A stretch of DNA of 64,000 nt from Veillonella criceti (GTDB taxonomy: Bacteria > Bacillota > Negativicutes > Veillonellales > Veillonellaceae). Of this stretch, positions 6,092-52,400 are shown in pieces. The first letter of the stretch is position 1, and every line of letters starts with the position of its first letter. The notes below the pieces were generated by a model. The model searched no databases and was not told where the DNA came from. It saw only the letters and a program-made list of their open reading frames with translations. The position numbers and the translations under genes were made by a program. The stretch covers positions 1,023,501-1,087,500 of the forward strand of contig NZ_UHIO01000001.1 in the NCBI RefSeq assembly GCF_900460315.1, in the 5' to 3' direction.

Positions 6092-6912
6092 TTCGCACAA
6101 TCCTAATTGACGATGAAGCGCCAGCTCGTGACGAACTGCGCTATTTGCTCACGACGAACCACAGCACTACGATTGATATTATTGGCGAAGCCGATAATGC
6201 CACGTCCGCCATTTCGCTCATTACCCATGAAAAACCACAATTAATCTTTTTAGATATTCATATGCGCGGACTCTCAGGTCTTGAACTCGCTGAGGTAATT
6301 CATGATATTTCACCAGACAGTCGTATCATTTTTGCTACGGCTTATGACGAATATGCGCTCAAAGCGTTTGAACTTCAAGCGTTAGACTATGTAGTAAAAC
6401 CAATCGAAGAAGATCGTCTTGCTAAAGCTATTCAGCATGTAATGAAAGCCCTATATCCACAGGGACTACCAACAACTGAAACTACCGATGAAACGTTACC
6501 GCAAACATCTCATAAATCGGCAAACAACAGTACAGCCCCTTATAGCACACCAGCTGTACGCACAAATAAATTAGCTGTGGATGATGGTGCTCATATTCTA
6601 TTGATTGACCTAGATAGCATCGCCTATATTACCGGTGAATCAGGACGCCTTGAAGTCCACACTGATGCAGGCAAGTACGGCTCAAATAAAACGTTAACTG
6701 AATTACAAGAACGCCTTCGTGGCACCTCATTATACCGTGTTCATCGCAGCTACATTGTAAATCTGAATAAAGTACGTGAAGTTGTTCCTTGGTTCAAAGG
6801 CACCTATTGGCTACGACTACCTAAGCAAACAGCCAAAGGCCAGGAACTCCTGGACATACCAGTGAGTAAGGCACAAGTGAAGTTGATAAAAGAGTTACTA
6901 GGGATTAACTGA
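6088..6912 (+). CDS. lytT: LytTR-type response regulator
   Basis: 274 residues. The receiver domain (1-125) has acidic pocket residues in LIDDE (Asp8-Asp9), the phospho-acceptor Asp56 in IFLDIHM and a conserved Lys in DYVVKPI. A Thr/Ser-rich linker (about 130-160) leads to a LytTR DNA-binding domain (about 165-270; SLYRVHRSYIVNLNKVREV is its hallmark). It is translationally coupled to lytS. Likely targets are the CstA-type transporter next door and possibly its own promoter. Confidence 0.9.
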   Translation: MIRTILIDDEAPARDELRYLLTTNHSTTIDIIGEADNATSAISLITHEKPQLIFLDIHMRGLSGLELAEVIHDISPDSRIIFATAYDEYALKAFELQALDYVVKPIEEDRLAKAIQHVMKALYPQGLPTTETTDETLPQTSHKSANNSTAPYSTPAVRTNKLAVDDGAHILLIDLDSIAYITGESGRLEVHTDAGKYGSNKTLTELQERLRGTSLYRVHRSYIVNLNKVREVVPWFKGTYWLRLPKQTAKGQELLDIPVSKAQVKLIKELLGIN

Positions 6913-6963
6913 ATGTAGTTTAATAACTACCAATATGTTGGCCAATTAGATTTTACTAAACAA

Positions 6964-7034
6964 GGAAATAGGGAGCTCTCGCGCCCGAGCTAGGAAAGAA
7001 AGCAACGGCCACTACGAGTTCCCTATTTTCTTTT
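6964..7034 (+). terminator. Long branched hairpin with T tail after lytT
   Basis: GAAATAGGGA (from 6965) pairs with TTCCCTATTTTC (7019-7030), followed by TTTTTG. An inner hairpin AGCTC/GAGCT branches from the loop. Likely the lytS-lytT terminator. Confidence 0.6.
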
Positions 7035-30633: not shown

Positions 30634-30960
30634 ATGAGCAATAAACGTTGTAAACGAATTGAAATGAGGCTCACTGAAGAGGAATTTATTGTAATAAAAC
30701 AATTAGCTAATAAAGCCAATATGACTGTAACACAATTCCTCTTAAAAGCAGCATTCAACTTACCTATTACAATATATGAAATTGACAATGTCAAAGATAT
30801 TTTAAAGCCTTTATTAGGTCTTCAACGGCACTATAACAATATTCGCTTTAGCTTACAAAAGACTAATCAAATAACTTCAATTATAACGCCTAATATAGAA
30901 AAGGAGATACATTCATTATGGCAATTGTTAGCGCAGGCAAAGGAAGTAAAAGTGCCTTAG
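30634..30960 (+). CDS. mobC: MobC-like relaxosome accessory protein
   Basis: 108 residues, RBS AAAGGAGCC. A ribbon-helix-helix N-terminus (KRCKRIEMRLTEEEFIVIKQ, then ANKANMTVTQFLLKAAF) followed by helices is the MobC/plasmid mobilisation pattern. Its 3' end overlaps the relaxase start by 43 bases in another frame. It would bind oriT and help the relaxase nick. Confidence 0.8.
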   Translation: MSNKRCKRIEMRLTEEEFIVIKQLANKANMTVTQFLLKAAFNLPITIYEIDNVKDILKPLLGLQRHYNNIRFSLQKTNQITSIITPNIEKEIHSLWQLLAQAKEVKVP

Positions 30961-31829
30961 GTAGTATGAAATATGTTGTCTTTGAAAAAAAGTCATCTAA
31001 CAAAAGAGCTAAACTTGTTGCTGGTATAAATTGCTCGGCTAATTATAAAGATGCTGCTAATGATTTTAAACAAATACTAAATATATATAAAAATAGAGGT
31101 CATCGAGAAGCCCACCATATGGTACTATCCTTCTCTGAGAACGAATCTGCTCAGTTTAGTAAAAAAGAACTAATGCAGAAAGCAATGGAAATAACAAAGC
31201 ATACATTCCCTAATCATCAAGTATGGCTAGGTTTACATGATGATACAGATCATACACATGTTCATTTAATCATCAATGCAGTTGATTTAGAAACAGGCAA
31301 AAAACTTCAAATCGCGGGCAGAAAAGGTATGCATGACATTATGAATAAAGTGCAAGAAAAAGCGAAAGAATTAAATTTAGATGACAATATGATTGTGGGT
31401 AAACAAAAGCAGCGAAATAGAGGTGATATTCATACACGAAATCCAGTAGAAAAGAAACTTCTAGAGAGCAATAATTCTTGGAAGAAGAATTTAGTATTAG
31501 CAGTTATTGACTCTTTAGAGCAATCTAATTCTTTAAACTCTTTTATTATGAATTGCTCAAATAACGGAGTAGGTTGTCAATGGAGTACTAAGCGACAAAA
31601 TGTAACCTTTTATTTACTTTCTAGTCCTTCAAAAAAAGCTCGTGCTAGTAATTTATCTAAGACATTTACATTACCTGAACTTAAATCTAAAGATTCTATC
31701 TTACATCATTTAAATATCAATTATACAAAACAAATAGAAACACAAATCAAATCGCTCCCTGTAAGAGAGATGGAAAAAAAGCACCCCAAAATTATCATTA
31801 CTAAATCTAAAGGAGATCTAAGCTTATGA
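30918..31829 (+). CDS. MobA/VirD2-type relaxase
   Basis: 303 residues; AAAGGAGA precedes the start inside mobC. The relaxase three-histidine motif is HDDTDHTHVHLIINAVD near residue 110, and HHMVLSFSENE near residue 70 is motif II. Tyr candidates for the nicking residue lie in the first 60 residues (MKYVVFEKK, NYKDAAND). The C-terminal third is a basic, less conserved domain. It is shorter than most plasmid relaxases, with no primase or helicase domain. It would nick the element at oriT and lead the strand into a helper's conjugation pore. Confidence 0.85.
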   Translation: MAIVSAGKGSKSALGSMKYVVFEKKSSNKRAKLVAGINCSANYKDAANDFKQILNIYKNRGHREAHHMVLSFSENESAQFSKKELMQKAMEITKHTFPNHQVWLGLHDDTDHTHVHLIINAVDLETGKKLQIAGRKGMHDIMNKVQEKAKELNLDDNMIVGKQKQRNRGDIHTRNPVEKKLLESNNSWKKNLVLAVIDSLEQSNSLNSFIMNCSNNGVGCQWSTKRQNVTFYLLSSPSKKARASNLSKTFTLPELKSKDSILHHLNINYTKQIETQIKSLPVREMEKKHPKIIITKSKGDLSL

Positions 31830-32566: not shown

Positions 32567-32741
32567 ATGGCTTACAGTGAATGAAGTTGCTTCATATTTA
32601 GGTATATCTCGAACTGCCGTTATTAATGCTATAAAAAGAAAAGAATTAAAATCAATTACCTTAGGTCATCGAATTTTGATTAAAGGTTCCGATTTTTCAG
32701 ACTTTTTAAATGCTGCTTATATTACAAAGGAGAGTAAATGA
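32556..32741 (+). CDS. xis: Excisionase (HTH_17, 61 residues)
   Basis: KWLTVNEVASYLGISRTAVI and INAIKRKELKSITLGHRILI are the MerR/excisionase-type winged helix. It overlaps the preceding gene by 11 bases and the integrase by four, so excisionase and integrase are made together. Confidence 0.82.
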   Translation: MENKWLTVNEVASYLGISRTAVINAIKRKELKSITLGHRILIKGSDFSDFLNAAYITKESK

Positions 32742-33943
32742 GACGAAGAAGTAATGGTGAAGGCAGCATATATCATAATAAAAAGCGTAATATGTACGAA
32801 TTAAGAATCACTTACACTGATCCGTTGGGTATAAAAAAACGAAAAGCATTTTATGGAAAAACGATAAAAGAAGTAAAAGAAAATTGTAGCAAATGGAAAG
32901 AAAATAATCTTAATTTTGATAATATTGTATATAAAAACCCTTTGGTAAAAGATTGGATTGTAGAATGGCTAGAGACCTATGTAAAAAATACTGTAAGACC
33001 ATCTACATATGAAAAATACAAGTGTTGCCTTAATCCAATAAAAGATTTTTTTGGTGATAAACATTTAAATAATCTAGATCCTACTTCATTACAACACTTT
33101 TTTAATCGTGAGCTTAAAAGTGGAGGTAAAAATAAAAAAGGGCTTTCAACATTAACTATTAGAAATCAAAGGCGCTATCTTTCTTCCTGTATAGATACTG
33201 CAATTAAGTTAGAGTTAATAACCAAAAATCCAGTTAAATTAACTAAACCTCCCAAAATAAAAAAGAAAGAAATAGAACCATTAACTATTGAAGAATGTAA
33301 AAAAATCATTAACCTTGCATATAATAATGTCCAAGCTATGATTAATCAAAATAAACTTGGGGATATGATGTCTGCTGAGGATTTATATATAGGTGTATAT
33401 ATAGCCATAGAAACAGGAATGCGCCTAGGAGAGCTTATGGCTTTACGATGGAATGACGTTATAAATGATATTATGGATAATGAATATATTATAGTGCAAC
33501 GCTCCAAATCTAAAATCAAAGAACAAGATATTACTAGAACTAAAACTGGCTTAGGTCGAAAAATACAAATTAGTAATTCTTTAAGTGTTGCCTTAAAGAA
33601 GCATTTTAAAATACAAAAAGCTTACATAAAAGAAGTTAATCAATTATACAATGATCAAAATTATATTATTGGTGGACTATTTGGAAATGGATATAGTCAT
33701 AGTCATTATAGCTCTAGAAAATTCAAAAAATTACTCAAACAAGCTAATATCGAACGCCGAGTACGATTTCATGACTTACGCCATACTCATGCTACCTTAC
33801 TTTTATTAGCAGGTGTCAATCCTAAAATTGTTCAAGAACGTTTAGGTCATGCAAGTATTGATATGACGCTAGACACATATTCTCATTTAACTTTAGCTAA
33901 TCAGTCGGTAGCTGTTAATGTTTTAGATAAATTTAATATTTAA
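32738..33943 (+). CDS. int: Tyrosine site-specific integrase
   Basis: 401 residues, Tn916/phage type. N-terminal arm-binding domain (GEGSIYHNKKRNMYELRIT), a SAM-like core-binding domain (about 65-165), and the catalytic domain with Arg in IETGMRLGELMALRW, HDLRH and HTHATLLLLAG, GHASIDMTLDTYSHL with the nucleophile Tyr. RBS AAAGGAG. It recombines the tRNA-Arg 3' half copies at 25581 and 39504, and perhaps 22441. In this element the gene is internal rather than next to an attachment site, 5.6 kb from the tRNA. Confidence 0.93.
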   Translation: MRRRSNGEGSIYHNKKRNMYELRITYTDPLGIKKRKAFYGKTIKEVKENCSKWKENNLNFDNIVYKNPLVKDWIVEWLETYVKNTVRPSTYEKYKCCLNPIKDFFGDKHLNNLDPTSLQHFFNRELKSGGKNKKGLSTLTIRNQRRYLSSCIDTAIKLELITKNPVKLTKPPKIKKKEIEPLTIEECKKIINLAYNNVQAMINQNKLGDMMSAEDLYIGVYIAIETGMRLGELMALRWNDVINDIMDNEYIIVQRSKSKIKEQDITRTKTGLGRKIQISNSLSVALKKHFKIQKAYIKEVNQLYNDQNYIIGGLFGNGYSHSHYSSRKFKKLLKQANIERRVRFHDLRHTHATLLLLAGVNPKIVQERLGHASIDMTLDTYSHLTLANQSVAVNVLDKFNI

Positions 33944-34076: not shown

Positions 34077-35255
34077 ATGAAATCTAATATTATAGTTAAC
34101 TCTAAATCAATAAATATTTTAAACAAAAGAAAATTACTGGATATTACACGAAAAGAGTTTGCAGATGCACTTGATTTTGATAGACAAGAAGAAAAAAATC
34201 TTAAATTATGGGAAGAAGGAGTATTACCAATTCCGACACAAATATATAATCAAATCATGAACTTTCGTAGTATTGGTAAATATGCTCTAAGTACTAAATC
34301 AAATTATAGGTTTACACAAATTGATTTATTTGCAGGCATTGGTGGTATTAGATTAGGATTTCAAAAGCATGGAGGAAAAACTGTATTTTCTTCTGAATGG
34401 GATAAGTTTGCACAAAAAACTTATCGAATAAATTATGGAGAAGTACCTGCTGGAGATATTACATTAATTCCCCCAGATACTATTCCTAATCATGATATTT
34501 TATTAGGAGGATTCCCTTGCCAACCATTCTCTCAAGCCGGTTTAAAAAAAGGTTTTGAGGATACTCGGGGTACATTATTTTTTAATATAGCTTCTATATT
34601 GAAAGCTAAAAGACCAAAAGCATTTATGCTAGAAAATGTGAAACAATTAAAGGGACATGATAAAGGAAAAACATTAGAAGTAATTTTAAATACGCTCAAT
34701 GAATTAAATTATTATGTTCCCACCCCTCAAATTTTAAATGCATATCATTTTGGCGTTCCTCAAAATAGAGAGCGTATTATTATCGTTGGTTTTAACAAAG
34801 ATTACTTACCTCAAGACTTCGAGGAATTTATTTATCCAGAAGGAAAAGTTGATAATAGTATAAAAGTAGGAGATATATTAAGTAATGTTGTAAAAGATAA
34901 ATACACTATCTCAGATAAATTATATGAAGGACATTTAGCAAGAAAAAGACAGCACAAGAAAAAAGGAAATGGATTTGGATTCTCTTTATTTAATAAAGAG
35001 AGTAAATATACTAGTACAATAAGTGCAAGATATTATAAAGATGGTAGTGAAGCATTAATAGAACAAAATAATAAAAATCCTAGAATGCTTACTCCGCGTG
35101 AATGTGCTAGACTTCAAGGTTTTCCAGAAGACTTTATTATTCCCGTATCTAATACACAAGCATATAAACAATTTGGAAATTCAGTTTGTATAAACGTAAT
35201 CGATGCTGTTGCTGAACGAATGGTAGCGTATTTAGAACAGTATCACATAATTTAA
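34077..35255 (+). CDS. Cytosine-C5 DNA methyltransferase with N-terminal HTH
   Basis: 392 residues. Residues 1-65 are a helix-turn-helix (LLDITRKEFADALDFDRQEE, then NLKLWEEG). The catalytic part carries FxGxG (IDLFAGIGGIRLGF), the nucleophile Cys148 in GGFPCQPFSQAG, ENVKQL (motif VI, Glu186), QNRERIIIVGF (motif VIII) and C-terminal motifs IX-X (ARLQGFPEDF, KQFGNSVCINV). M.SsoII/M.EcoRII-type enzymes (CCNGG or CCWGG) have such an N-terminal HTH and repress their own promoter. With a LlaMI-like endonuclease beside it, CCNGG is the most likely target. It faces the rest of the block across a bidirectional terminator. Confidence 0.9.
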   Translation: MKSNIIVNSKSINILNKRKLLDITRKEFADALDFDRQEEKNLKLWEEGVLPIPTQIYNQIMNFRSIGKYALSTKSNYRFTQIDLFAGIGGIRLGFQKHGGKTVFSSEWDKFAQKTYRINYGEVPAGDITLIPPDTIPNHDILLGGFPCQPFSQAGLKKGFEDTRGTLFFNIASILKAKRPKAFMLENVKQLKGHDKGKTLEVILNTLNELNYYVPTPQILNAYHFGVPQNRERIIIVGFNKDYLPQDFEEFIYPEGKVDNSIKVGDILSNVVKDKYTISDKLYEGHLARKRQHKKKGNGFGFSLFNKESKYTSTISARYYKDGSEALIEQNNKNPRMLTPRECARLQGFPEDFIIPVSNTQAYKQFGNSVCINVIDAVAERMVAYLEQYHII

Positions 35256-35300
35256 AAAAAGGATTGAAGCGTATATAATATCTTCAATCCTTGCTTTTTT
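35255..35300. terminator. Bidirectional terminator inside the restriction-modification block
   Basis: AAGGATTGAAG pairs with CTTCAATCCTT, with T runs on both strands. Confidence 0.85.
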
Positions 35301-36789
35301 ATCTAAATACTAATTCTTTAAATGTAGCGGTCCCTTTAGTCCTTATATTTTTAGGTAATTGATCTTTAGATGTAAGTTTATATCCAGAAAATTCATCTAT
35401 TAAAGCACCATTCTGATAATATTTTATAGGAATATTATTATTAATATAACAAACTTTTTTGTCTTTTGAAATAGTGCCTTCGTCATCTGTAAAATACACT
35501 ATATCGCTTAAATGAAGGTTTAGACCTACACAAGTATTCTTTAAATTACAAGTATAACATGAAATAGGATTTATTCCTCTTAATTTTTTATTACCTGTTG
35601 TCCCAAAACGCTGGCACCATAAAATATCAAAAAAAGTTTTCATATTAGTTTTATTGGATTGACTTGCCAACCAAATCACTCTTTCCAGTTTTCCCATATT
35701 AGAAAACTTCTTTAGAAAAGTTATTTTTTTACTAATCCCCAATGGATACTTATAAAAAGTTTCAATCCATGTATCAATTGGAATTGCTTCAGAATTTAGA
35801 AATCCTTGTTGAATAAAGCAAGCAATAACTTTTTCTGAATATCCTATAAGTTTATTTCCAGCCATATAAAACTTATTAAAGAAGTCTTTTTTCCATGATG
35901 CATACTTTTTATCTATATTGATGTATGAACTAATAAAATAGGCTGCACGCCATGGGTGACGATTAAATGCATCTACTAATGCTTCAGCTACTGCTTTTTC
36001 ATCTTCATTAAATATTTTTTGTTCATATAGTGGCTCAGATACTTCTTTGATAAATGAGCCTTTATTTTTTCCCCAAGCTTTTTCCATCCCTAAAAAAATT
36101 GTATTTTCTATTTTAACACTATGAGTAAAAAATTCATTAAATAACTTAATTGATGTTGAATGCAATAACTTAAACTTAGTGAAGCTGTTAAAATTTTCTT
36201 GTAAAATATCATTTAATAATGGAAGTACATAAAACTCTATATGCTCCCATTTATTTGGCAAAGCAACTTGTTCGCCAAATGCACTCATAAAATTATAAAG
36301 CATTCTCATTTCGCTTTGTCGGCCTGTCTTAGGTTGCCAAGCTGCTACAAATCTTACTATAGAATACATTTCTTCATAGAATTTTCCATAAGGCAAATAT
36401 TTCCCGTAAGAGCTTTCTATATATCGCCAAAGATCGTCTAATAAGCGCTGATAGTCTTTGTTTTCATTGCAGCATAAGAGTATATCTGTTTTGCTGATTT
36501 TATCAGAAAGTCCAATTCTATTGCTAAGTTCGTCTTTAATTTTTTCTATATAGTTATTTTCATCCTGAGAAACATTAGACAACAATAAGAATTCAGCAGT
36601 ACAAGAATCTTCAGTAATACTATAACTCACTGCTACAGGGCAAGCGATAATACGTTTATTATTACATTCAAAGTGAATATATATAATAGGAAATTGTGGT
36701 AAATCAGGATAGAATAATTCTATTTTAGAAATCCACGGTATTGGAATATCACTAAGTTTAATTTTTATTTCATGATTTAATTTAAACAT
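35299..36789 (-). CDS. HhH-GPD glycosylase-like protein with Fe-S cluster motif
   Basis: 496 residues, last gene of the minus-strand unit. Residues 1-240 are an unrecognised N-terminal domain. About 295-425 resembles the HhH-GPD base-excision fold. LIGYSEKVIACFI (314-326) matches the LPGVGRKTAxxV hairpin with Lys320 at the bifunctional-glycosylase position. AIPIDTWIETF (335-345) matches VDTHIxRV with Asp339 at the catalytic position. Cys392, 411, 414 and 420 (WCQ...SCYTCNLKNTC) recall the Fe-S loop of endonuclease III/MutY, spacing C-x18-C-x2-C-x5-C. Lying beside two 5-methylcytosine enzymes, it may repair T:G mismatches from deamination (as Mig.MthI or Vsr do) or cut modified DNA. The fold call is by eye; the function is inference. 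Confidence 0.6.
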   Translation of the reverse strand: MFKLNHEIKIKLSDIPIPWISKIELFYPDLPQFPIIYIHFECNNKRIIACPVAVSYSITEDSCTAEFLLLSNVSQDENNYIEKIKDELSNRIGLSDKISKTDILLCCNENKDYQRLLDDLWRYIESSYGKYLPYGKFYEEMYSIVRFVAAWQPKTGRQSEMRMLYNFMSAFGEQVALPNKWEHIEFYVLPLLNDILQENFNSFTKFKLLHSTSIKLFNEFFTHSVKIENTIFLGMEKAWGKNKGSFIKEVSEPLYEQKIFNEDEKAVAEALVDAFNRHPWRAAYFISSYINIDKKYASWKKDFFNKFYMAGNKLIGYSEKVIACFIQQGFLNSEAIPIDTWIETFYKYPLGISKKITFLKKFSNMGKLERVIWLASQSNKTNMKTFFDILWCQRFGTTGNKKLRGINPISCYTCNLKNTCVGLNLHLSDIVYFTDDEGTISKDKKVCYINNNIPIKYYQNGALIDEFSGYKLTSKDQLPKNIRTKGTATFKELVFR

Positions 36790-36796
36790 TTTTCAC

Positions 36797-37660
36797 CTAT
36801 TTATATGTCTCAATGATTAAACTATCCCAGAATTGATTGCTAGCTCTCCATTGTGAATAAGGTCTTATATTCCCTTCATGCATTCCACTATCAAAAAATA
36901 CTATACCACGGCGAATTAACTCAAGCCAAGAATTATAATTAAATGGAGCACCAAAACAAATTCTGTCATATTTTCCATTTAAGTCTGTCTTACAGGTAAA
37001 CCAGCCCATATCATTAAATTTATCTTCAAGTTTTTGCTTTAAACATTTATCACCTCGTTTTATACTAAGTGACTCTAAACCAAACCAATGTGCAATAATT
37101 AGATTTTCTTGTTGAAGGGGTTTAGGAATAATAAAATCTTTGTTTTCTCTCATATCTTTTGAAAATGAGTAAACTGCTAGAATATCAAATTCCCTAATAG
37201 GCGTATCAAAAGGGGTCCCCCAAGATTCATTTGGCTCTACAATTTTTAAAATTTGCCCAAAAGAATTATACTTATTTATTTTAGGCACTGGGCGACCAGA
37301 CCATGAATACCTATTGTTTTTATCAGGATTTGGTGCTCCAAATATCCGGCAAAATGAATCCTGTCTTTGAGTTGGAGTCTTACCATCAAATAAATGTGAA
37401 TAGCAACTTTTTTTATATATGTATCGATTAGCAGACCAGTCTCCAAATGATGTTTTGCTAGTAGTTTCATTTTTAAGTTCATAACCATAAAAATCGGCAT
37501 GATTATCTGCATCAGGTGATTTTCCAAATTGCTCTTCCAACCAATTACCTTCTTTTCCATCATGCCTTTCATTTCGTCCCGTTACATCAGGAACTTGACC
37601 TTTGACATAAGCTCTAAAAAAGTTGATTAACATTTCCTTGTTAGGATCCATATTGACCAT
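36797..37660 (-). CDS. Type II restriction endonuclease, LlaMI/ScrFI-like (PD-ExK)
   Basis: 287 residues. The nuclease core is near the N-terminus: NHADFYGYELKNETTSKTSF with Asp56, Glu61 and Lys63 forming PD...ExK, followed by GDWSANRYIY. This signature is, to my memory, that of the LlaMI family, which cuts CCNGG. ScrFI-type systems of that specificity carry two C5 methyltransferases, as here. Seven bases upstream of the glycosylase-like gene and six after the second methyltransferase, it is co-expressed with both. Confidence 0.72.
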   Translation of the reverse strand: MVNMDPNKEMLINFFRAYVKGQVPDVTGRNERHDGKEGNWLEEQFGKSPDADNHADFYGYELKNETTSKTSFGDWSANRYIYKKSCYSHLFDGKTPTQRQDSFCRIFGAPNPDKNNRYSWSGRPVPKINKYNSFGQILKIVEPNESWGTPFDTPIREFDILAVYSFSKDMRENKDFIIPKPLQQENLIIAHWFGLESLSIKRGDKCLKQKLEDKFNDMGWFTCKTDLNGKYDRICFGAPFNYNSWLELIRRGIVFFDSGMHEGNIRPYSQWRASNQFWDSLIIETYK

Positions 37661-37666
37661 CCTCTC

Positions 37667-38743
37667 TTAACTGAACAATTCTTTAAAAATAGCTTCTAAT
37701 ACAGGAACAACTATGCTATTTCCAGATTGTTTATAAAGACTAGTGTTGCTTACTAAACTGCTAGCCTTATAATAATCAGAATCTTTAACTCCCATAAAAC
37801 GCCAAGTCTCTAGTGGTGTTAATCGGCGAGCTGGATATAATCCATCACTATTAATAGGTCCAGAAACCAGTTGACGTCTCCTTTTTTCTAAAAAATCTTT
37901 TAAAAAAGTTCCTTTCCAATAATTAGAGTCTAAACAATATATATAATCCTGTTTAATTGGATCTAATGTTGTTTGGTTATTTTTTAAATAAAATTTATCA
38001 GGCACATTTTTTTCTAATAACTCAGTCATAGTAACCTTTAAAGGGATTTCTCTAGGATAAAGAAACTTATTTTTTCCTTTATATATACTTATGCAAAAAA
38101 CTCTTTCCCTATTTTGTGGTATACCAAAGTCACGAGCATTTAAAACCTTCCAATAATTTTTATATCCTAAATTTTCTAAATACTCTAAAAACAGCTCAAA
38201 AATTTTTTTATGATTATTACCCACAAGATTTTTAACATTTTCCATCATTAGATATTTAGGGCGCTTTGTTTCTATAATTTTACAACATTCCCACAATAAA
38301 GAAGATCTTGTATCTGAAGATTTACTTAATCCTTTTTGAAAACCTGCTACTGATATATCCTGACAAGGAAATGAATAAGTAAAAAAATCAAAATCAGGAA
38401 GATCTAAGGGATTAATAACTCTGATATCTCCATAATTTTTACTTAAAACATTAGCAAGATACATATCTTTAAGTTTTTGCCCCTTTAGATTTTTTGCTTT
38501 ATTAACAAAAGTTTTATAATCTAAAGGAACATTTATTTTTTCTAAATAGCCCCTCATGGACTGATCAGAGACATTTAATGGTTCATTTCTTTTTTCTAAT
38601 AGATGTTCATGAATAGCAGCATACGAAAGAATAACATCACCTTCAATTTCAGATATACCTACTATTTCATGTGGAATTTTGAGATTTTTTAAAGCCATCC
38701 TTTGACTACCATATCCAGCAAAGGCTTCAAAAACTTTAAGCAT
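37667..38743 (-). CDS. Cytosine-C5 DNA methyltransferase (second)
   Basis: 358 residues without an N-terminal HTH. FEAFAGYGSQRMALKN is motif I, Cys127 in SFPCQDISVAGFQKG the nucleophile, MMENVKNL motif VI (Glu168), QNRERVFCISIY motif VIII, and RRLTPLETWRFMGV with KQSGNSIVVPV motifs IX-X. The FEAFAGYGSQ start and the short target-recognition region differ from the other methyltransferase, so the two were not made by recent duplication. It probably methylates the other strand or cytosine of the same site. Confidence 0.88.
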   Translation of the reverse strand: MLKVFEAFAGYGSQRMALKNLKIPHEIVGISEIEGDVILSYAAIHEHLLEKRNEPLNVSDQSMRGYLEKINVPLDYKTFVNKAKNLKGQKLKDMYLANVLSKNYGDIRVINPLDLPDFDFFTYSFPCQDISVAGFQKGLSKSSDTRSSLLWECCKIIETKRPKYLMMENVKNLVGNNHKKIFELFLEYLENLGYKNYWKVLNARDFGIPQNRERVFCISIYKGKNKFLYPREIPLKVTMTELLEKNVPDKFYLKNNQTTLDPIKQDYIYCLDSNYWKGTFLKDFLEKRRRQLVSGPINSDGLYPARRLTPLETWRFMGVKDSDYYKASSLVSNTSLYKQSGNSIVVPVLEAIFKELFS

Positions 38744-38747
38744 AAAT

Positions 38748-39218
38748 TTAATACTCCTTACATATATGTTCAGGGAAGATATTCGTTAAATCATTTTTTA
38801 TTTTCCCATCTAGTAATATAACCTTTTTGTCCAAATATTTTTTTAGCTCTATGTTATTTTCTAATAAAATATATGACTGAGGTGGAAAAAAGTTTGGTAC
38901 ATTAGTCCGCAAATCTTGTAATGTGATAGGCTCAATTCTTTGAAATCCAATAATTTCAGCACCATATCTATAATTTTTTTGTTCAAATAACTCTATACGA
39001 TGGCATATTAATTTATTTTCTTTATATTGAAGCTTCCACTTATTTATTGAATGAATTCTTCCAAAATATATTATTCCACAAATAGCTTTTACTGGTTTAC
39101 TAATATACATATAAGCAAATCTGCATTCTTTTGGAAAATTTCGTCTATATTCTATCAGTTTTTCTCCTCGTATAATTTTATTATAAATGGAGGGCCAAAA
39201 ACTCATTACTGGAACCAT
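38748..39218 (-). CDS. ASCH-like domain protein
   Basis: 156 residues. The opening SFWPSIYNKIIRGEKLIEYR, RRNFP and FAYMYISKPVKAICGIIYFG follows the ASCH/PUA-like pattern (S-P-Y---I--G-K--E-R then YI--PVK-I-G). Such domains bind RNA or modified nucleic acid bases. It is first in the unit, four bases before the methyltransferase gene, so part of the same transcript. Reading modified DNA or controlling the operon are options; I infer neither strongly. Confidence 0.65.
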   Translation of the reverse strand: MVPVMSFWPSIYNKIIRGEKLIEYRRNFPKECRFAYMYISKPVKAICGIIYFGRIHSINKWKLQYKENKLICHRIELFEQKNYRYGAEIIGFQRIEPITLQDLRTNVPNFFPPQSYILLENNIELKKYLDKKVILLDGKIKNDLTNIFPEHICKEY

Positions 39219-39503: not shown

Positions 39504-39552
39504 ATCAGTGGTGCGCCTAGCAGGATTCGAACCTGCGCACCCGGTTCCGGAG
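39504..39552 (-). repeat. Attachment site copy 3 (inside intact tRNA-Arg)
   Basis: 49 bases identical to the corresponding part of copies 1 and 2, from just outside the CCA end to the anticodon. Integration keeps the tRNA whole because the element supplies an identical 3' half. Confidence 0.9.
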
Positions 39553-39583
39553 ACCGGCGCTCTATCCCCTGAGCTATAGGCGC
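39509..39583 (-). tRNA. tRNA-Arg (CCG), integration target
   Basis: Acceptor GCGCCTA/TAGGCGC, anticodon stem CCGGT/ACCGG enclosing CTCCGGA (anticodon CCG), T arm with GGTTCGAATCC, encoded CCA. Its 3' half is the attachment site used by both elements. Confidence 0.97.
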
Positions 39584-43403: not shown

Positions 43404-46400
43404 TTATTTACTAATCATCAACGACTGTACTAATTCTTCTAGCTTTTTAATACGTTCGTTTTGACTTTCATTTTGAGCTTTCAAGTCATCAATTTCAGTA
43501 GTTTGTTGTTCTACATATTCAATTAGACGACCTTTACTCATACCAGCATATGGATTCGATTCGCCAAACTTCATGCTCACGCCAAAGTTCATCATATCTT
43601 CGCCATTGCCTAACGTACCGCCTACACTAAACATAGTGTTTTCGTTTGGACGATAGAACGCACCTAATGCAACAGAGCTCGAACCGTGATACGTACCAAC
43701 ACCAGCCGTGAAATTCCACTTATTATCTGGATCATAATCGAGTGGATGTAACGCTGCTAAGGCTGCAAGACCGGCACCCGATTTATTAATCTTAGTATCT
43801 AATCGTGAAATTTGATGTGAGTTATTTTGTACTACATTCGCTACGCCACTAATTTGTTCAGATAAAGTTTCACGAACTTCAAATACTTGACCGGTTGTCG
43901 CCGCATAATTGCCATTTTCTTCTAATTCAACGGCTTCAACATTACTAATAATACCTGTGTTAGTAATTTTTACAGTATCACCAACAGTAATACTATTGCC
44001 TACTTTAAGATCTTTGTTCAAGGATAAAGTATATTCATTCTTGCCATCAGTCTTAGGCGCTATAATATTACCATCACCTTCTTTAATTGTTGTAGCACCA
44101 GCAATTTCAGTAATATTATCAATAATATTAGTAATTTTGCCATCCACAGCGTGAAGTTGATCTTCTGTAGCAGCACGACCTGATTCAAAAGTCTTGCCAT
44201 CCCACTTCGTATTAGTTAAGCCTGTGATTGTACTATTAGCGATTTCCCCATCTTTTGGTTTCGTACCATCAATAACAATACCACCAATAGTGATTTTTTC
44301 ATCAAGACTCACTTTTACGCCTTTAGTTGCATCAGCTTCATCAACTGGAGTTACTTTTACGCCGGTAACAGCATCGCCTTCAACTTTAGTAACAATGCCA
44401 TTATCAGTGATGTTATTGACTTTTTCTTCTAAGTTTGTGACCTTACCTTCTACCTTAGTTACACGAGTGTTCAAGGTAGTAATATTAGAAGTATTATCTG
44501 TTACCTCTTTAACAAAAGCAGGATCTACACCAATCGTAATATCATTACCGGATTGTGTAACTTTAATCTTTTCGCCATCTTTAAAGTTAATGATTTCGTT
44601 CTTCTTAATAGAACGTTCACCTGCACCATTGACTTGAAGCTTCCAAACACCAGCTTCGCCAACTTGTGAGCTAATGTTGCTAATCGCTGTTTGTAATTGT
44701 TTTTCTGTAGCAGCACGGTTTTCAACGATACCAGCTTCAGGATTCCAATCAATATTTGTTAAGCCAGTAATATACCGACCTTCTACAGCTTTATCTGGTA
44801 CATCTTTATCACCAACTTTTGGCATCGGTGTTTGTTTCCCAATGTAAATACCGCCAGTTAGGGTACCCTTTTCATCTGTAGTTCCGCCAATGCGCACACT
44901 ACCGTCATCAGGAAGATTGATATTCTTAGCTAATTTAACGCGTAAGCCTATAATCTTGTTATCCTTAGAATCTACATCAGCTACTACACCAATGTTATTA
45001 TCAGTTAAGGAATCTGTTGCTGCACCACCTTTAATATCTAGCCGTTCATTAAGTTTCTTAGCTACATATCGGTTAGTGCCATCTTTAAAGTCATCACCAG
45101 CAAACTTCATACCGTCATTGAGCGTAGCTACTTCGGTAACAATTGGCTTTCCATCGGCACCTTTTTCGCCAGTTTCATATACGATACGCGTGATAGTTTC
45201 ACCATCTTTACCATCAACGCCTGGTGTGCCTTCTTTTACAGTAATCTCAGCAACAGCATTCTTACCTGGTGTACCATCAGCACCATCTTTGCCTTTTTCA
45301 CCAATAATTGTAATAGTACCTTTTTCAGCATCCTCGCCTGGTTCGCCTGGTTTGCCTTCTTTACCTGGGTTACCAATAGTCACATCATTATTAAGCTTAA
45401 GATCATATACCTTCTTGCCATTAACTTCAGTTAAACCAAGTGTTAAACTACCTTCACCAACATACTTATCCTTAACAGCGGACGTACCATCAACTTTAAG
45501 CTCTGTATGATTACCGCCAACAGATGTCTTCACCTTACCAAGCTCGTCCAGTAACTGACCATAGTTAACTGCATCAGTATCTGCTGTACCTTCAGCTACA
45601 TTAGTAATCCGTTGGTTACCATTATCTAAGCCTGTAGAGGATAGTTTTACCGCGCCTACTACTGGTTTTTCTACTGGATTTACAGCTGCATTATCTTTTG
45701 TATACGACTTGGATTGTTCATCATAAACAGCATCAGTTAAATCAGCATACCAGTTTCCATCTCGGCCTTTTACTAAGGCATTACCATCAGCATCTTTTGC
45801 AGTTTCTGTAAAAGCTACACTGCCATCATTTAGAGCTAAATTCTTAGCCAGTTTAACGCGTAAGCCTATAATCTTGTTATCCTTAGAATCTACATCAGCT
45901 ACTACACCAATGTTATTATCAGTTAAGGAATCTGCTGCTGCACCACCTTTAATATCTAGCCGTTCATTAAGTTTCTTAGCTACATATCGGTTAGTGCCAT
46001 CTTTAAAGTCATCACCAGCAAACTTCATACCGTCATTGAGCGTAGCTACTTCGGTAACAATTGGCTTTCCATCGGCACCTTTTTCGCCCGTTTCATATAC
46101 GATACGTGTGATAGTTTCACCATCTTTACCATCAACGCCTGGTGTGCCTTCTTTTACAGTAATCTCAGCAACAGCATTCTTACCTGGTGTACCATCAGCA
46201 CCATCTTTGCCTTTTTCACCAATAATTGTAATACTACCTGCTTCAGCATCCTCGCCTGGTTCGCCTGGTTTGCCTTCTTTACCTGGGCTACCAATAGTCA
46301 CGTCATTATTAAGCTTAAGATCATATACCTTCTTGCCATTAACTTCAGTTAAACCAAGTGTTAAACTACCTTCACCAACATACTCATCTTTAACAGCGGA

Positions 46401-49400
46401 CGTACCATCAACTTTAAGCTCTGTATGATTACCGCCAACAGATGTCTTCACCTTACCAAGCTCGTCCAGTAACTGACCATAGTTAACTGCATCAGTATCT
46501 GCTGTACCTTCAGCTACATTAGTAATCCGTTGGTTACCATTATCTAAGCCTGTAGAGGATAGTTTTACCGTGCCTACTACTGGTTTTTCTACTGGATTTA
46601 CAGCTGCATTATCTTTTGTATAAGACTTGGATTGTTCATCATAAACAGCATCTGTTAAATCTGTGTACCAGTTTCCATCTTTGCCTTTTACTAAGGCATT
46701 ACCATCAGCATCTTTTGCAGTTTCTGTAAAAGCTACACTGCCATCATTTAGAGCTAAATTCTTAGCCAGTTTAACGCGTAAGCCTATAATCTTGTTATCC
46801 TTAGAATCTACATCAGCTACTACACCAATGTTATTATCAGTTAAGGAATCTGCTGCTGCACCACCTTTAATATCTAGCCGTTCATTAAGTTTCTTAGCTA
46901 CATATCGGTTAGTGCCATCTTTAAAGTCATCACCAGCAAACTTCATACCGTCATTGAGCGTAGCTACTTCGGTAACAATTGGCTTTCCATCGGCACCTTT
47001 TTCGCCCGTTTCATATACGATACGTGTGATAGTTTCACCATCTTTACCATCAACGCCTGGTGTGCCTTCTTTTACAGTAATCTCAGCAACAGCATTCTTA
47101 CCTGGTGTACCATCAGCACCATCTTTGCCTTTTTCACCAATAATTGTAATACTACCTGCTTCAGCATCCTCGCCTGGTTCGCCTGGTTTGCCTTCTTTAC
47201 CTGGGCTACCAATAGTCACGTCATTATTAAGCTTAAGATCATATACCTTCTTGCCATTAACTTCAGTTAAACCAAGTGTTAAACTACCTTCACCAACATA
47301 CTTATCCTTAACAGCGGACGTACCATCAACTTTAAGCTCTGTATGATTACCGCCAACAGATGTCTTCACCTTACCAAGCTCGTCCAGTAACTGACCATAG
47401 TTAACTGCATCAGTATCTGCTGTACCTTCAGCTACATTAGTAATCCGTTGGTTACCATTATCTAAGCCTGTAGAGGATAGTTTTACCGTGCCTACTACTG
47501 GTTTTTCTACTGGATTTACAGCTGCATTATCTTTTGTATACGACTTGGATTGCTCATCGTATACAGCATCTGTTAAATCTGTGTACCAGTTTCCATCTTT
47601 GCCTTTTACTAATAAATTGCCATCAGCGTCAGTTCCTACTTCAGAGAAAGCTACACTACCGTCAGCCAGTTTAATGTTCTTAGCTAATTTAACAGTAAGT
47701 GTATCCGTGCCAGAAGCTACTATACCAATATTATTATCAGTCAGGTCTGAAACAGTTGCACCACCAACAATGTTTAATTGTTCACTAATACCTCTATGTA
47801 ATACATCAGTTGCATCACCTTTAAAATTAAGACCTGCTTCACGTAATGCTTTTAATTGTGCTACGTTAACCGCATCAGTATCTTCTGTACCAGCTGCTAC
47901 ATTTGTAATTTGGCGAGTATCCGCTGCAGTACCTACTGATACTGCACCTAAGCCTGATAGATACGATGAAATAATAGCATTTCTAGCATCATAGCTCTTT
48001 GAAGTTTCAGCATAAGCTGTTTTAACCTCGGCTTGTAGTTGTTCATTTTCTTTATCAACTTCTAGGGCTGCACTTTTTTCACGATATACTGCTAATTTAG
48101 CTTTAAAATCGTCATCCGCTATCTTATATTCGTCATCCTTACCTAGATACTTAGCTATATCTTCTGCTTTACTAAAAGTAACGCCATCCACTGTATACCC
48201 AAAGGCCCCTGACTCTCTATCTACAACGGAATAAGCCCCTAAGGCAACGCCACTTTCAACATTCCCTTCAGAAGCATAGCCCAAGGCCATTGCTTTATCA
48301 TTAAAAGCTTCTGTATAACCACCTAAAGCAATAGTATTTGTCCCTTTAGTTTTTGCATTATAGCCTATAGCTGTACCAAACCGACCTTCTTCTGTATTTG
48401 CCCAAGGGCCAATAGCAATAGAACGATACCCATTGGCCATTGTTTTATAACCTAATGCTGTTGTCATTTCACCATTAGCTTCTGTGCCTCTACCTACTGC
48501 TAAAGACCACCCACCATTAGCTTTAGTTTCACCACCAATAGCAATACTTCCACTTGTTGGTGCTTCTGCATACGTCCCTAAAGCCATACTGAAAGTATCT
48601 TCAGCTTTTGCTCGATTACCAAGAGCTATTGCGCCTGCTGCTATTGCCTTTGATGTATCACCAATAGAAACAGAACCACGACCTGTAGCCTTTGCTTCTG
48701 ACCCCATCGCATTTGATTGGAAAGTCGCTGATGCTAAATTACCTACCGCTACACCACCTTGACCCGTAGCGGTTGCTTTAGATCCTATAGCAACAGAAAG
48801 ACCACTTGCATCACTAGTTGAATCATTAATATCAAACGCATTTGCTCCATCACCAATAGCTACACTAAGACCTCTTGCTTTAGCATAATTACCAATAGCT
48901 ACATCTGCTTGATTAGAATCGCCGGCTACTGTATTTTTACCAATAGCCACACTAAGGTCTGATGTTGCCACAGAGCTTACACCAATTACAATCCCTTTGC
49001 CATCAGTAATATTACTACCAATTACAATTGCATTGTCAGTACCAGCTGCTACATTAGAACCTAACGCTACTATATTAGCTGCACTAGCACTTGCATTAGG
49101 ACCTATAGCAATAGAATCTTCTCCAACAGCACCTTTACTGTTTTTATTACCATCTAATTTAGAGTTGATAGATACATATTCAACTTCATTGGTAATAGTA
49201 TTAGAAACTTGATTTATTTTAGTTGTCAACGCAGTATTCAACGCGTCTAATTGTTTAACATTGACTGCATCATACTCATCAGCACCACCAGCAACATTAG
49301 TTATGCGGCGACGATTAGCTTCTACTGTGTAATCGCCAATACTATATTTAGCATTCCCCACAGAAACTATGCCCTGCGCTTTATTAAATGCTTCTTTTGA

Positions 49401-52400
49401 TAAATAAGCTTCTGTACTCACATCATCAGAAATATACGCTAACGAGTTATTCCCCAGTGCTACTGAATTATCTGAAGCAGCTCGTGAGTAGCTACCCAAT
49501 GTAGCCGAGCGATTTACATCTGTTGTTCCATCTAATGAGCGAATAATCGAATATGTACCAATTGCTACAGAGTTCTCACCTGTTGTTCGTGTCCAATGAC
49601 CTAATGCCATAGCATGCTTGCCCTCTGCATATGCTTGTTTACCAATAGCTGTTGCATAATGGTCTTTTGCCTTAGCTGCTACCCCAATAGCAATGGTATT
49701 TGTATCGTAGGTCTCGGCTCCTGAACCAATAGAGAGTGCTTGGTACCCAAATGATTTTGCGCCATGACCTACAGCAACAGAATTCATTTGCTCCTTGCCT
49801 TCTTCAGGATTTGTATCAGACTCAACTATTTCAATGCTATTATTAGGTATACCAACTTCTGGATCACTATCTCGTACCGCTCCAATATAAGTATTACGAC
49901 CTAAAGCAGTACCATTAATTCCCGAACGCTCTATAGTTGAAAGATAGCCTAAACCAACTGAGTGATTTCCACTAATTGTACTAGCACTACCTATGGCCAT
50001 TGAGCTATAACCGAACGCTCTAGCTGCAGTACCTATAGCCAAAGCACTATCAGCTGATGCACCTGTCTCACTTACTACACCAATGGCGATAGATTGTAAG
50101 CCTTTAGCCTTATTACCGTATCCCATAGCAAGTGCAACTTGTCCTGTAGTTTCATTTTCTTGACCAAAGGTATAACTATATGCAGCTGTCGATTTATTAT
50201 TATTTCCTACAGCTAAGCTATTCAATCCACTAGCACTAGATCTTGGTCCAATAACCACAGCATCAGTAGCTCCCGCTATAGAGTTAAACCCTAATGCAAC
50301 CGAGCGGTCTCCTATACTATTGGTTCCATGACCAATAGAAATTCCATCTTCATTCGCTACATTAGTAAGATGCCCTATAGCTACACCACTCAACGCACCT
50401 TTAGATACGGTAACGTCTGGCCCTATTGCAATAGAATCAGGTGCACCTGCTCCGGCAGGGTCATTGAACAATCCAAAGTTTCTTGCTACAGGGTCTAAAT
50501 CCTGACCAGTAGTGTTCACATGGACATAACCACTGGGACCTTCCGCTACTTTTTCAACTTTAGTATTAAGAGCCTTAAACTGCGCCACGTTAACTGCATC
50601 AGTATCTTCTGTACCGGCAGCTACATTTGTGATTTGACGAGTTGCATATGCAGTACCTACCGAAACAGCGCCTAACCCAGATTTATACGCAGCACTTAAT
50701 TTATTTCTCTCATCTACAATAGCATAAAGTTCATCTCTTGCTTTTACTGCCGCATTATACAAAGTCTTATCATCTGGATTAGCATCTGAGACAGCTTTTT
50801 TCTCCAACATCTCTTTTTGCTTATCTATTGCTTGTGCTGTTAATGCATTATATTCATCAACCTTACCTAAATAAGTTATAATATCTGCTTCACTTGTAAA
50901 AACAGTTCCATTTGGTACATAGCCATAACTTCCGCTTGCTCTATCAGCCATTGAAAATGAGCCTAGTGCAATAGACTGTTCAGCCTCAGCCCGTGCACTT
51001 GAACCTAAAGCAATAGCACGATCCGCTTTTGCCTTTGCGCTTGCCCCCATAGCTACACTACGAAGTCCAGAAGCCAACGAATTCGCACCTAATGAAGCTG
51101 AATTTACACCACTAGCTTCAGAAAAAAAGCCTAGGGCTATACTTCTATCACCAGAACCAATTGATCTCGTACCAATAGCGACACCTGAATCGCTTTCAGC
51201 GTGAGCCCTATCACCAATAGCAATAGAGCCTTCCTTTTTAGTCTCCGTATTACTTACTGCCTTATTACCAATAGCAATACCAGCATTACCATTAGCTGTT
51301 ACACTTGTGCCTAAGGCAACTGCGGATTCTCCTAAAGCATTACTATTTTGACCATAAGCTACACTATAATTACCGGTAGCTATAGATTTCCAACCTACTG
51401 CTGTATTTCGTGCATTACCAGATGCATTTGCCTCAACACCGATAGCAACACTATGATTAGATGTTGTAGAAGAACTTACACCAATAACAATACCTTTACC
51501 ATCAGTAATATTACTACCAATTACAATCGCATTGTCAATACTTGCTTTTACATTAGAACCTAAAGCTACTGTATTAGCTGCACTAGCACTTGCATCAGGA
51601 CCAATTGCAATAGAATCAGTACCACTAGCGCCTGAGTTATCTTTATTACCTTCCACTTTCGAATTTATATCTACATACTCAACACCACTACTGGTACTTA
51701 TTTTATTAGCAATACGCGCATCTACAGCTGTACTCAAAGCTTTTAACTGTTTAACATTAACTGCATCATAATCATCGGCACCACCGGCTAATCCAGTGAT
51801 ACGACGATGGTTAATTGGTGCAACATTATTCCCTAAATTTAGTTCAAAATTATTACCTATTGCAACAATACCATTATCAGCAGAGAATGTTTCGCCACTT
51901 AAATACGATGTATTAGCTACACCATCAGTAAATGCATAGGAATTATGACCTAAGGCTACTGAATTAGGCCCTCCAGCAAAACTAGTAAAACCAATAGCTA
52001 CGCCATTATCATGCAAAGTATGTGCACCAGCACCAATGGCTACACCAGTAGGGCTAGTACTTGCAAAATTACCAATAGCAACCGAGTCATAACTTGGATT
52101 TACATTATATCCAATACCTACCATATAATTGTTTGAATTAGGGTCATCTACTTTACCAATATCACTACCAATCAAAATAGAACGCACACCATTACTGTAT
52201 ACACTATGCCCAATCCCAATAGAATTACTAGCAACGTTATCATTTTCATCTGTCAATTTTACATTGGTACCAATAGCTACAGCACCATTAGTTATAGATT
52301 CAGCACCCGCACCAATAGCAATAGTTGACCCTCCAAGTGCCTGAGCTAAAGTACCTATAGCAATATTCGCATACTCTTCCTCACTAGCATTAGCCCTATT

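Follow-up and report, generated by a model that had tools for sequence, protein, structure and literature searches.

A candidate iron-sulphur DNA glycosylase with a predicted OGG1-type scaffold linked to CCNGG-type cytosine-C5 restriction-modification genes

Introduction

What is the role of a DNA glycosylase-like protein that is encoded in a cytosine-C5 restriction-modification (R-M) operon? The question is raised by a stretch of 64,000 nucleotides of Veillonella criceti (contig NZ_UHIO01000001.1, positions 1,023,501 to 1,087,500), here called the window, in which an open reading frame (ORF) on the minus strand at 35299..36789 encodes a protein of 496 amino acids (aa). Coordinates below are those of the window unless another locus is named. 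A preliminary description made from the sequence alone had pointed out Lys320, Asp339 and the cysteines 392, 411, 414 and 420, and had placed the gene in a C5 R-M operon. All of this is confirmed: the ORF is intact on the minus strand, the plus strand of 35299-36789 is full of stop codons, the residues stand at the positions given and are invariant in an alignment of 13 family members, and the operon setting comprises a restriction endonuclease (REase) of family PF09562 and two methyltransferases (MTases) of family PF00145.

The ORF, the family alignment and a structural model together describe a candidate Fe-S-type DNA glycosylase with an OGG fold. What appears to be new is the combination, in the predicted structure, of an OGG1-type scaffold with an Nth-type cysteine loop, tied to C5 R-M genes of CCNGG type. 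The family was found described nowhere in the literature searched, and queries combining R-M or LlaMI with glycosylase returned no papers.

Predicted fold and catalytic residues

AlphaFold produced a useless model from the single sequence (predicted local distance difference test, pLDDT, of 37). The 13-sequence alignment gave a model with a pLDDT of 84.0 and a predicted template modelling score of 0.81, which in Foldseek matched 44 PDB chains at E <= 1e-3, all of them mouse or human OGG1 or the OGG of C. acetobutylicum (best E 2.0e-5). A second aligner, used as a renewed look at Foldseek's own matches and not as an independent search, placed model residues 8-379 on residues 22-325 of human OGG1 (hOGG1; 3ih7_A) with a Z of 14.7 and a root-mean-square deviation of 3.6 over 258 residues; the A. 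fulgidus AlkA (Z 13.9) and the C. acetobutylicum OGG (Z 13.6) came close to this. The HhH-GPD (HhH, helix-hairpin-helix) fold, which had been set beforehand as the check on the glycosylase assignment, was thus found in the predicted model. The only match at E <= 0.001 in a viral fold library was an AlkA-like protein of Edafosvirus, and the PabI fold was not among the 50 fold matches listed. Residues 380-496 lie outside the fold matches, single rows excepted. In the model, the 240-residue N-terminal part, which the preliminary description had left unrecognised, is the N-domain of the OGG1/AlkA type followed by the beginning of the catalytic domain.

Profile comparison with hhalign also brings the hairpin close to OGG. 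The OGG profile was built from seven bacterial proteins out of 14 loci (L019, L069-L081), the other seven having yielded none by the pattern used. Against this profile the whole candidate profile gave a P of 9.7e-4, with an alignment covering residues 313-350 (35740..35853, minus strand), the predicted HhH and catalytic loop, in which K320 (codon 35830-35832), D339 (codon 35773-35775) and W341 pair with the Lys, Asp and Trp of the OGGs. In sub-regions that were picked after inspection of the model, so that the P values are those of single comparisons, residues 262-391 gave a P of 1.3e-4 with OGG as against 0.026-0.59 with Nth, MutY, AlkA-like, LlaMI, MT1 and MT2 profiles, and residues 131-200 a P of 0.038 with OGG as against 0.15-0.71 with the others. 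The window protein, searched across the class, gave 16 weak matches (E 0.07-0.45), which were taken as chance except for one bacterial OGG-like protein (L019, E 0.186) reached through residues 314-388. Profile searches of PDB sequences returned no glycosylase, and a rank test of the hairpin (residues 305-350) was not significant, with human OGG1 coming ninth in a set in which several negatives had been fetched for their resemblance to the query.

The hairpin shares P-[IV]-D with OGGs and the following x-W with bacterial OGGs, and the human OGG1 segment has both the 19-residue spacing of Lys and Asp and the K-V-x-x-C of the candidate. At the hairpin itself the window protein reads GYSEK where OGGs read GVGxK. 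The GQ(S/C/A)F motif of the OGG N-domain, which reads 8-oxoguanine, is present in 7/7 bacterial OGGs and in 0/13 members of the new family. In an ungapped alignment, the invariant Gln328 falls on a residue of hOGG1 that we take to be Met257. Because of this glutamine and the missing motif, 8-oxoguanine is an unlikely substrate and a pyrimidine a plausible one. The catalytic residues of hOGG1 are Lys249 and Asp268 (PMC12938805, available excerpt). The hairpin with the catalytic pair is thus OGG-like, and in the model the fold is the HhH two-subdomain fold of the OGG1/AlkA branch. As a separate observation on OGGs in this group, OGG_N (PF07934) has no match in the host genome, while 13/200 genomes of the class have one.

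The cysteine loop

The preliminary description had called the hairpin endonuclease III-like. The hairpin is closer to OGG, and it is the four-cysteine loop (C392-x18-C411-x2-C414-x5-C420; 35530..35616, minus strand), by its spacing and profile a probable [4Fe-4S] site, that resembles endonuclease III. The profile of residues 385-425 gave a P of 0.0016 with Nth and 0.011 with MutY, as against 0.024-0.65 with five other profiles, and in a rank test Nth and MutY proteins took ranks 2-12 of the best 12, behind one phage ORF. When full profiles were compared with Nth and MutY, the loop alone was matched; it is the sole endonuclease-III-like part of the protein. Its first gap is C-x18-C instead of the C-x6-C of endonuclease III and MutY, as had been noticed at the outset, and this is the case in 13/13 members; the comparison set of 20 Nth and 10 MutY proteins had been chosen by the x6 motif.

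A plain endonuclease III homologue was rejected because of the cysteine spacing and the N-domain; Nth and MutY are without an OGG1/AlkA-type N-terminal domain. In the available excerpt of PMC9266487, the HhH glycosylases with an Fe-S cluster are Nth, MutY, the M. luteus UV endonuclease, Mig.Mth and DME-like proteins, while a TBP-like N-domain is given to OGG1 and AlkA. Neither that excerpt nor the literature searched yielded a protein that combines the OGG1/AlkA N-domain with the Fe-S loop.

Distribution and conservation of the family

The candidate has no match at E <= 1 in Pfam, NCBIfam or PADLOC, none to PF03852 (Vsr), and a single weak match over 22 residues in PHROGs (E 0.018). Among 12 members scanned, the weak Pfam matches fall on seven unrelated families, each matched by one or two of the members, the best being GEP5 (E 6.7e-4). 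With the whole window protein as the query, neither the viral contigs nor a collection of 84,980 genomes, one per species, at first gave a match. A sub-sequence scan of the viral contigs found the relative L054, a two-sequence alignment scan of the genome collection then gave 11 loci (L055-L065), and a later scan of viral contigs added L068. Two further hits were dropped, L066 as lying on the same contig as L054 and L067 as agreeing with L056 in ORF lengths and identities. Including the window this amounts to 14 distinct loci, 13 of them new; the gene is broken in L065, which was left out of the alignments, so that 13 intact members were aligned. As the scan was keyed on the exact peptides YGKFYEE and EMRMLYN, more divergent relatives would escape it.

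The 12 other intact members are 43-61% identical to the window protein. The loci of the genome collection are assigned to Bacteroidales, Alkalihalobacillus, Spirochaetaceae, Lysinibacillus, Fredinandcohnia, an Alphaproteobacterium, three Gastranaerophilales and two archaea (an uncultured archaeon and an archaeal metagenome-assembled genome), although some records are metagenome bins whose host names may be wrong. Invariant in all 13 are K320, V321, C324, QQGF (327-330), P337, D339, T340, W341 and the four cysteines with their C-x18-C-x2-C-x5-C spacing, as well as PKTGxQSEMRMLYNF (153-167, bar residue 157) and DEFSGY (465-470). Relatives with the same cysteine spacing in distant phyla show that the candidate is more than a chance ORF.

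No other genome matched at E <= 0.001 among 28 genomes of the family, 398 of the phylum and 380 of the class (overlapping sets). With tblastn the window protein found nothing at E <= 0.001 in plasmids and phages, its matches at E <= 10 (15 plasmid records and one phage) being judged as chance, and neither the L060 protein against plasmids nor the L062 protein against phages found anything at E <= 0.01. The matches are few and scattered, and the gene is therefore rare, as expected of horizontal transfer.

The operon in Veillonella criceti

The candidate is the last gene of a minus-strand operon. The first gene encodes an ASCH-like protein of 156 aa (38748..39218), which matches PADLOC PDC-M11B (E 2.5e-12) and PF04266 only at E 0.05, below the cut-off of that family. 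It is followed by the C5 MTase MT2 (358 aa, 37667..38743; PF00145 E 2.6e-72) and by a type II REase of the LlaMI family (287 aa, 36797..37660; PF09562 E 4.7e-64, PADLOC REase_II E 9.8e-109). Seven bases separate the stop codon of the REase from the start codon of the candidate, and an AGGTG sequence resembling a ribosome-binding site (36794..36798, minus strand) overlaps this stop codon. The second C5 MTase, MT1 (34077..35255, plus strand; PF00145 E 8.5e-109), is convergent with the operon and has an N-terminal region resembling a helix-turn-helix (weak PF08965 match, E 0.0066). In the window, MT1 contains the motif GNGFx13TIx3YYK, which is absent from MT2. This motif is possibly characteristic of CCNGG methyltransferases (PMC3346939, available excerpt), and M.SsoII methylates the second C of CCNGG (PMC3978073, available excerpt).

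To the left of the cassette lie a gene for a Toprim protein, a tyrosine integrase (32738..33943, plus strand; PF00589 E 2e-24) and a MobA/VirD2-like relaxase (30918..31829, plus strand; PF03432 E 3e-21). The G+C content is 27.5-31.4% at 22-40 kb (2-kb bins) as against 38-44% to the right. Because of the integrase, the relaxase, the Toprim protein and the stretch of low G+C, the R-M cassette looks as if it sits on a mobile element. A possible integration site of this element is the tRNA-Arg gene at 39509-39583, close to where the low-G+C stretch ends on the right; a search for direct repeats around the element found no clear attachment site. Further to the right, the window encodes a trimeric autotransporter adhesin of 3097 aa with YadA head, stalk and anchor domains (43404-52697).

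Linkage to C5 methyltransferases in other loci

Co-occurrence with C5 MTases in other genomes had been expected, and 13 of the 14 loci, the window included, carry a C5 MTase, the exception (L057) being a contig of 5.2 kb. An intact LlaMI-type REase is present in 12/14 loci. In L065 only a decayed remnant of it was seen by eye, and the 18.4 kb of L060, from an uncultured archaeon, contain no LlaMI homologue. Gene order and orientation differ among the loci, so that the linkage is not inherited synteny alone. The C5 MTase of L060 is 33% identical to MT1 and has a near variant of the CCNGG motif; as this locus pairs a C5 MTase with the candidate in the absence of a LlaMI homologue, the constant partner is methylation and not the LlaMI REase. 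The CCNGG motif was found in 10/10 MT1 proteins examined (L065 left out).

Other repair genes lie in or beside several cassettes. In L060 (9504-12586) Vsr (PF03852 E 6.4e-22), the candidate and the C5 MTase stand side by side, with Vsr immediately preceding the candidate in the same orientation, and two Endonuc_Holl genes and a PD-(D/E)XK gene lie upstream of the MTase. L057 (E 4.9e-33, with the REase gene in between) and L065 (E 5.8e-33) also have Vsr no more than 1.5 kb from the gene, and a motif scan found no Vsr in the window or the remaining loci. In L058 (8779-9866) and L059 (8769-9832), genes for an AlkA-like HhH-GPD protein (E 2.7e-16 and 1.4e-15) and a MazG-domain protein (E 1.6e-5 and 2.6e-5) directly adjoin the candidate.

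The ASCH-like gene was found by BLAST in 4/14 loci, with a further one in L068 seen by eye and without a Pfam match; it also occurs in the LlaMI cassettes L002, L085 and L086, which have no glycosylase gene. These belong to six loci that were found through LlaMI independently of the candidate, three on plasmids (L002-L004, with near-full-length LlaMI matches; a fourth record with only a LlaMI fragment was left out) and three viral (L085-L087). The candidate is present in 0/6 of them, as is the Vsr motif, although some span only 6-8 kb. The viral scan also returned three known candidate loci, so that 3/6 viral loci carry the gene.

Two loci have neighbours of a different kind. At 1-2216 of L057, a protein with MrcB_N and AAA_5 domains accompanies Vsr beside the cassette, which suggests modification-dependent restriction. 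In L068, whose contig is classed as viral, the cassette follows genes for Ku (PF02735 E 2.4e-49) and for an ATP-dependent DNA ligase (PF01068 E 2.1e-34) at 5218-6992.

Evolution of the gene

Members that are far apart in the candidate also tend to be far apart in the R-M genes: with L060 left out, the correlation of pairwise distances has an r of 0.56 with the REase (n=12), 0.63 with MT1 (n=10) and 0.78 with MT2 (n=9), with permutation p values of 0.0006-0.0012; the R-M genes correlate more tightly among themselves (r 0.73-0.92). Ratios of dN/dS of 0.08-0.34 in five chosen pairs, with dS at least 1 in four of the five, indicate that the gene is under purifying selection.

One pair of loci stands apart. 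L063 and L064 are 98.2% identical over the 2980 nt of MT1-LlaMI-MT2, 96.6% over 921 nt of the upstream flank and 91.9% over the first 33 codons of the candidate; after these codons the candidate is only 61.9% identical. The divergent alleles (L063 922-2517, L064 10001-11680) thus mark an exchange confined to the candidate gene. This is the pattern expected of specificity switching, but a single neutral recombination may also account for it.

Possible functions

Observation supplies the gene, its operon, the conserved residues and a linkage to C5 MTases, and prediction the fold; any function has to be built on these. Our preferred function, put forward tentatively, is the removal of 5-methylcytosine that is damaged or deaminated within CCNGG, because the C5 MTase is the constant partner of the gene. 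The candidate would be made as part of the CCNGG R-M cassette and would shield the host from the damage that its own cytosine methylation brings. It would find CCNGG-type sites with deaminated or damaged 5-methylcytosine, that is, T or U opposite G or oxidised 5-methylcytosine, and flip the altered base into an OGG-type pocket. The glycosidic bond would be cut with the aid of Asp339, the strand would be nicked through a Schiff base on Lys320 and beta-elimination, the Fe-S loop would serve a structural role, and ordinary base-excision repair would complete the job. Base excision, the lyase step, the metal cluster and the nature of the substrate are all inferred here. A plain substitute for Vsr, which in E. 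coli already serves T:G repair at Dcm sites, was rejected because of the co-occurrence of the two genes in 3/14 loci and the lack of the Vsr motif from all six LlaMI loci without the candidate.

Several observations weigh against such a repair enzyme or against parts of it. The TM-scores in Foldseek are low (0.28-0.39 by query length), the cysteine loop is modelled at a pLDDT of only 52-79, and PF00730 has no match at E <= 10 in 12/12 members scanned. The N-domain (residues 1-130) has no sequence similarity to OGG (P 0.39), so that its kinship with OGG rests on the model. In the cassettes, MT2 is without the CCNGG motif in 9/9 cases, 6/9 loci found by LlaMI lack the candidate and the 3/9 that have it were all known before, and Vsr is already present within 1.5 kb in three of the 14 loci, which count as about two independent cases since L057 and L065 look like close relatives. 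The allele exchange between L063 and L064 is unexpected of a repair enzyme with a fixed site. Finally, the T:G glycosylase Mig.MthI uses Tyr126 and not a lysine (PMC2714593), and the lysine of OGGs may be fortuitous, with OGGs being monofunctional in vivo (PMC3397491, available excerpt), which weakens the proposed lyase step.

The exchange is better accommodated if the enzyme is a second arm of restriction, the main alternative and a possible but doubtful function, in which it would remove modified phage cytosines such as 5-hydroxymethylcytosine (5hmC), its lyase breaking the phage strand. LlaMI would cut unmodified CCNGG and modified phages would escape it; the host, with only 5-methylcytosine at CCNGG, would be spared. 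The ASCH-like protein in the window operon matches PADLOC PDC-M11B, in which PDC presumably stands for phage defence candidate. Carriers of the gene include an apparent mobile element and contigs classified as viral, Vsr already takes care of T:G repair in three loci, and the exchange between L063 and L064 is limited to the glycosylase gene as if only the specificity had been swapped; one such swap can, however, be neutral recombination. The enzyme would act like Brig1 and Brig3 on a different fold: the DNA glycosylase Brig1 is an anti-phage enzyme (PMC11078745), and Brig3, which removes 5hmC, has the ASCH-fold hydrolase BapA as its operon partner (PMC13160076, available excerpt). The parallel to Brig3-BapA is weak because the ASCH-like gene is found in only 4/14 loci and also in cassettes without the candidate. 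Against this function also stand the other fold superfamily to which the Brig proteins probably belong and the tight link to CCNGG-type C5 MTases, of which a free-standing enzyme for modified bases has no need. The fuller proposal, in which an Fe-S modified-cytosine glycosylase on the OGG1 scaffold forms the second CCNGG restriction arm and exchanges its specificity by allele swapping, is rather unlikely. The earlier suggestion of an accessory glycosylase is supported in its fold and its C5 R-M link, and of its two versions T:G repair is tentatively ranked above action on foreign bases.

The co-occurrence with Vsr is also compatible with a complementary lesion, for instance an alkylated cytosine or the uracil that arises when methylation is aborted, produced by the C5 MTase or its cofactor through routes other than T:G deamination. 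Repair of this damage is improbable as the main function: the AlkA-like HhH-GPD protein that, together with a MazG-domain protein, adjoins the gene in L058 and L059 gives it some support but would itself already handle alkylation there, and the pair of Lys and Asp fits lyase-type glycosylases, for which it is typical when they act on oxidised or methylated bases, and not AlkA. It is very improbable that the enzyme excises a base at unmethylated CCNGG and is blocked by the methylation of its own system, as R.PabI acts at GTAC. Such restriction glycosylases are known (PMC10273834, available excerpt), and L060 has a C5 MTase and the candidate with no LlaMI homologue; yet an intact cognate REase is already present in 12/14 loci, an Endonuc_Holl or the PD-(D/E)XK gene could be the nuclease of L060, and the HhH fold usually serves damaged or mispaired bases. 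The slightest chance is given to a DNA-binding regulator or REase helper that has the glycosylase fold and excises no base. The GYSEK hairpin, which differs from the usual GVGxK, and an excision activity that is predicted only would allow for this, whereas all 13 members retain the catalytic Lys and Asp.

Comparison with known systems

The features examined place the candidate outside the Mig.MthI, endonuclease III and OGG1 families, and it is expected to act as a base-excision glycosylase. It resembles OGG1 and bacterial OGGs in the fold of residues 8-379, the hairpin motifs and the Lys/Asp pair, and differs from them in its four-cysteine loop, its C-terminal extension, the missing GQ(S/C/A)F motif and Gln328 at the hOGG1 Met257 position. 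With endonuclease III and MutY it shares the HhH superfamily and the x2 and x5 spacing of the cysteine loop, and it is set apart by the x18 gap and its OGG1/AlkA-type N-domain.

Mig.MthI, whose gene lies in an R-M system, has no OGG1-type N-terminal domain, and its Tyr126 presumably occupies the position of the lyase lysine of the candidate. The plant 5-methylcytosine glycosylases DEMETER and ROS1 carry Lys and Asp with the usual cysteine spacing, and Vsr, like the candidate a companion of C5 MTases, is a nicking endonuclease of another fold. Mig.MthI and DEMETER/ROS1 are HhH glycosylases with an Fe-S cluster, as the candidate may be, but the plant proteins have a split catalytic core (PMC9266487, available excerpt). 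Mig.MthI counters 5-methylcytosine deamination and is MutY-like with Tyr126 (PMC2714593), in contrast to the invariant Lys320 of the candidate. Brig1 and Brig3 are likewise DNA glycosylases, and the BapA partner of Brig3 has the ASCH fold; they are related to uracil-DNA glycosylases (PMC11078745; PMC13160076, available excerpt), while the best fold matches of the candidate are OGG1.

The cassette in the window has the features of LlaMI/ScrFI systems, with its PF09562 REase and the CCNGG-type motif in MT1. Related systems (CCNGG) have a LlaMI-type REase, two C5 MTases and a COG4933 protein, and the available excerpt of PMC3346939 mentions no glycosylase gene for them. We infer that the ASCH-like protein of the window is this COG4933 protein.

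Implications

The candidate would join two branches of the HhH superfamily that are given apart in the available excerpt of PMC9266487, the OGG1/AlkA N-domain of one and the Nth-type Fe-S loop of the other. The family is unnamed in the libraries used and yet occurs in Bacillota, Bacteroidales, Spirochaetaceae, Alphaproteobacteria, Gastranaerophilales and archaea. It raises the testable question of whether C5 R-M systems have dedicated base-excision enzymes, be it for self-repair or against modified phage DNA. If true, a prokaryotic lyase specific for 5-methylcytosine or 5hmC would be useful as a tool for base mapping.

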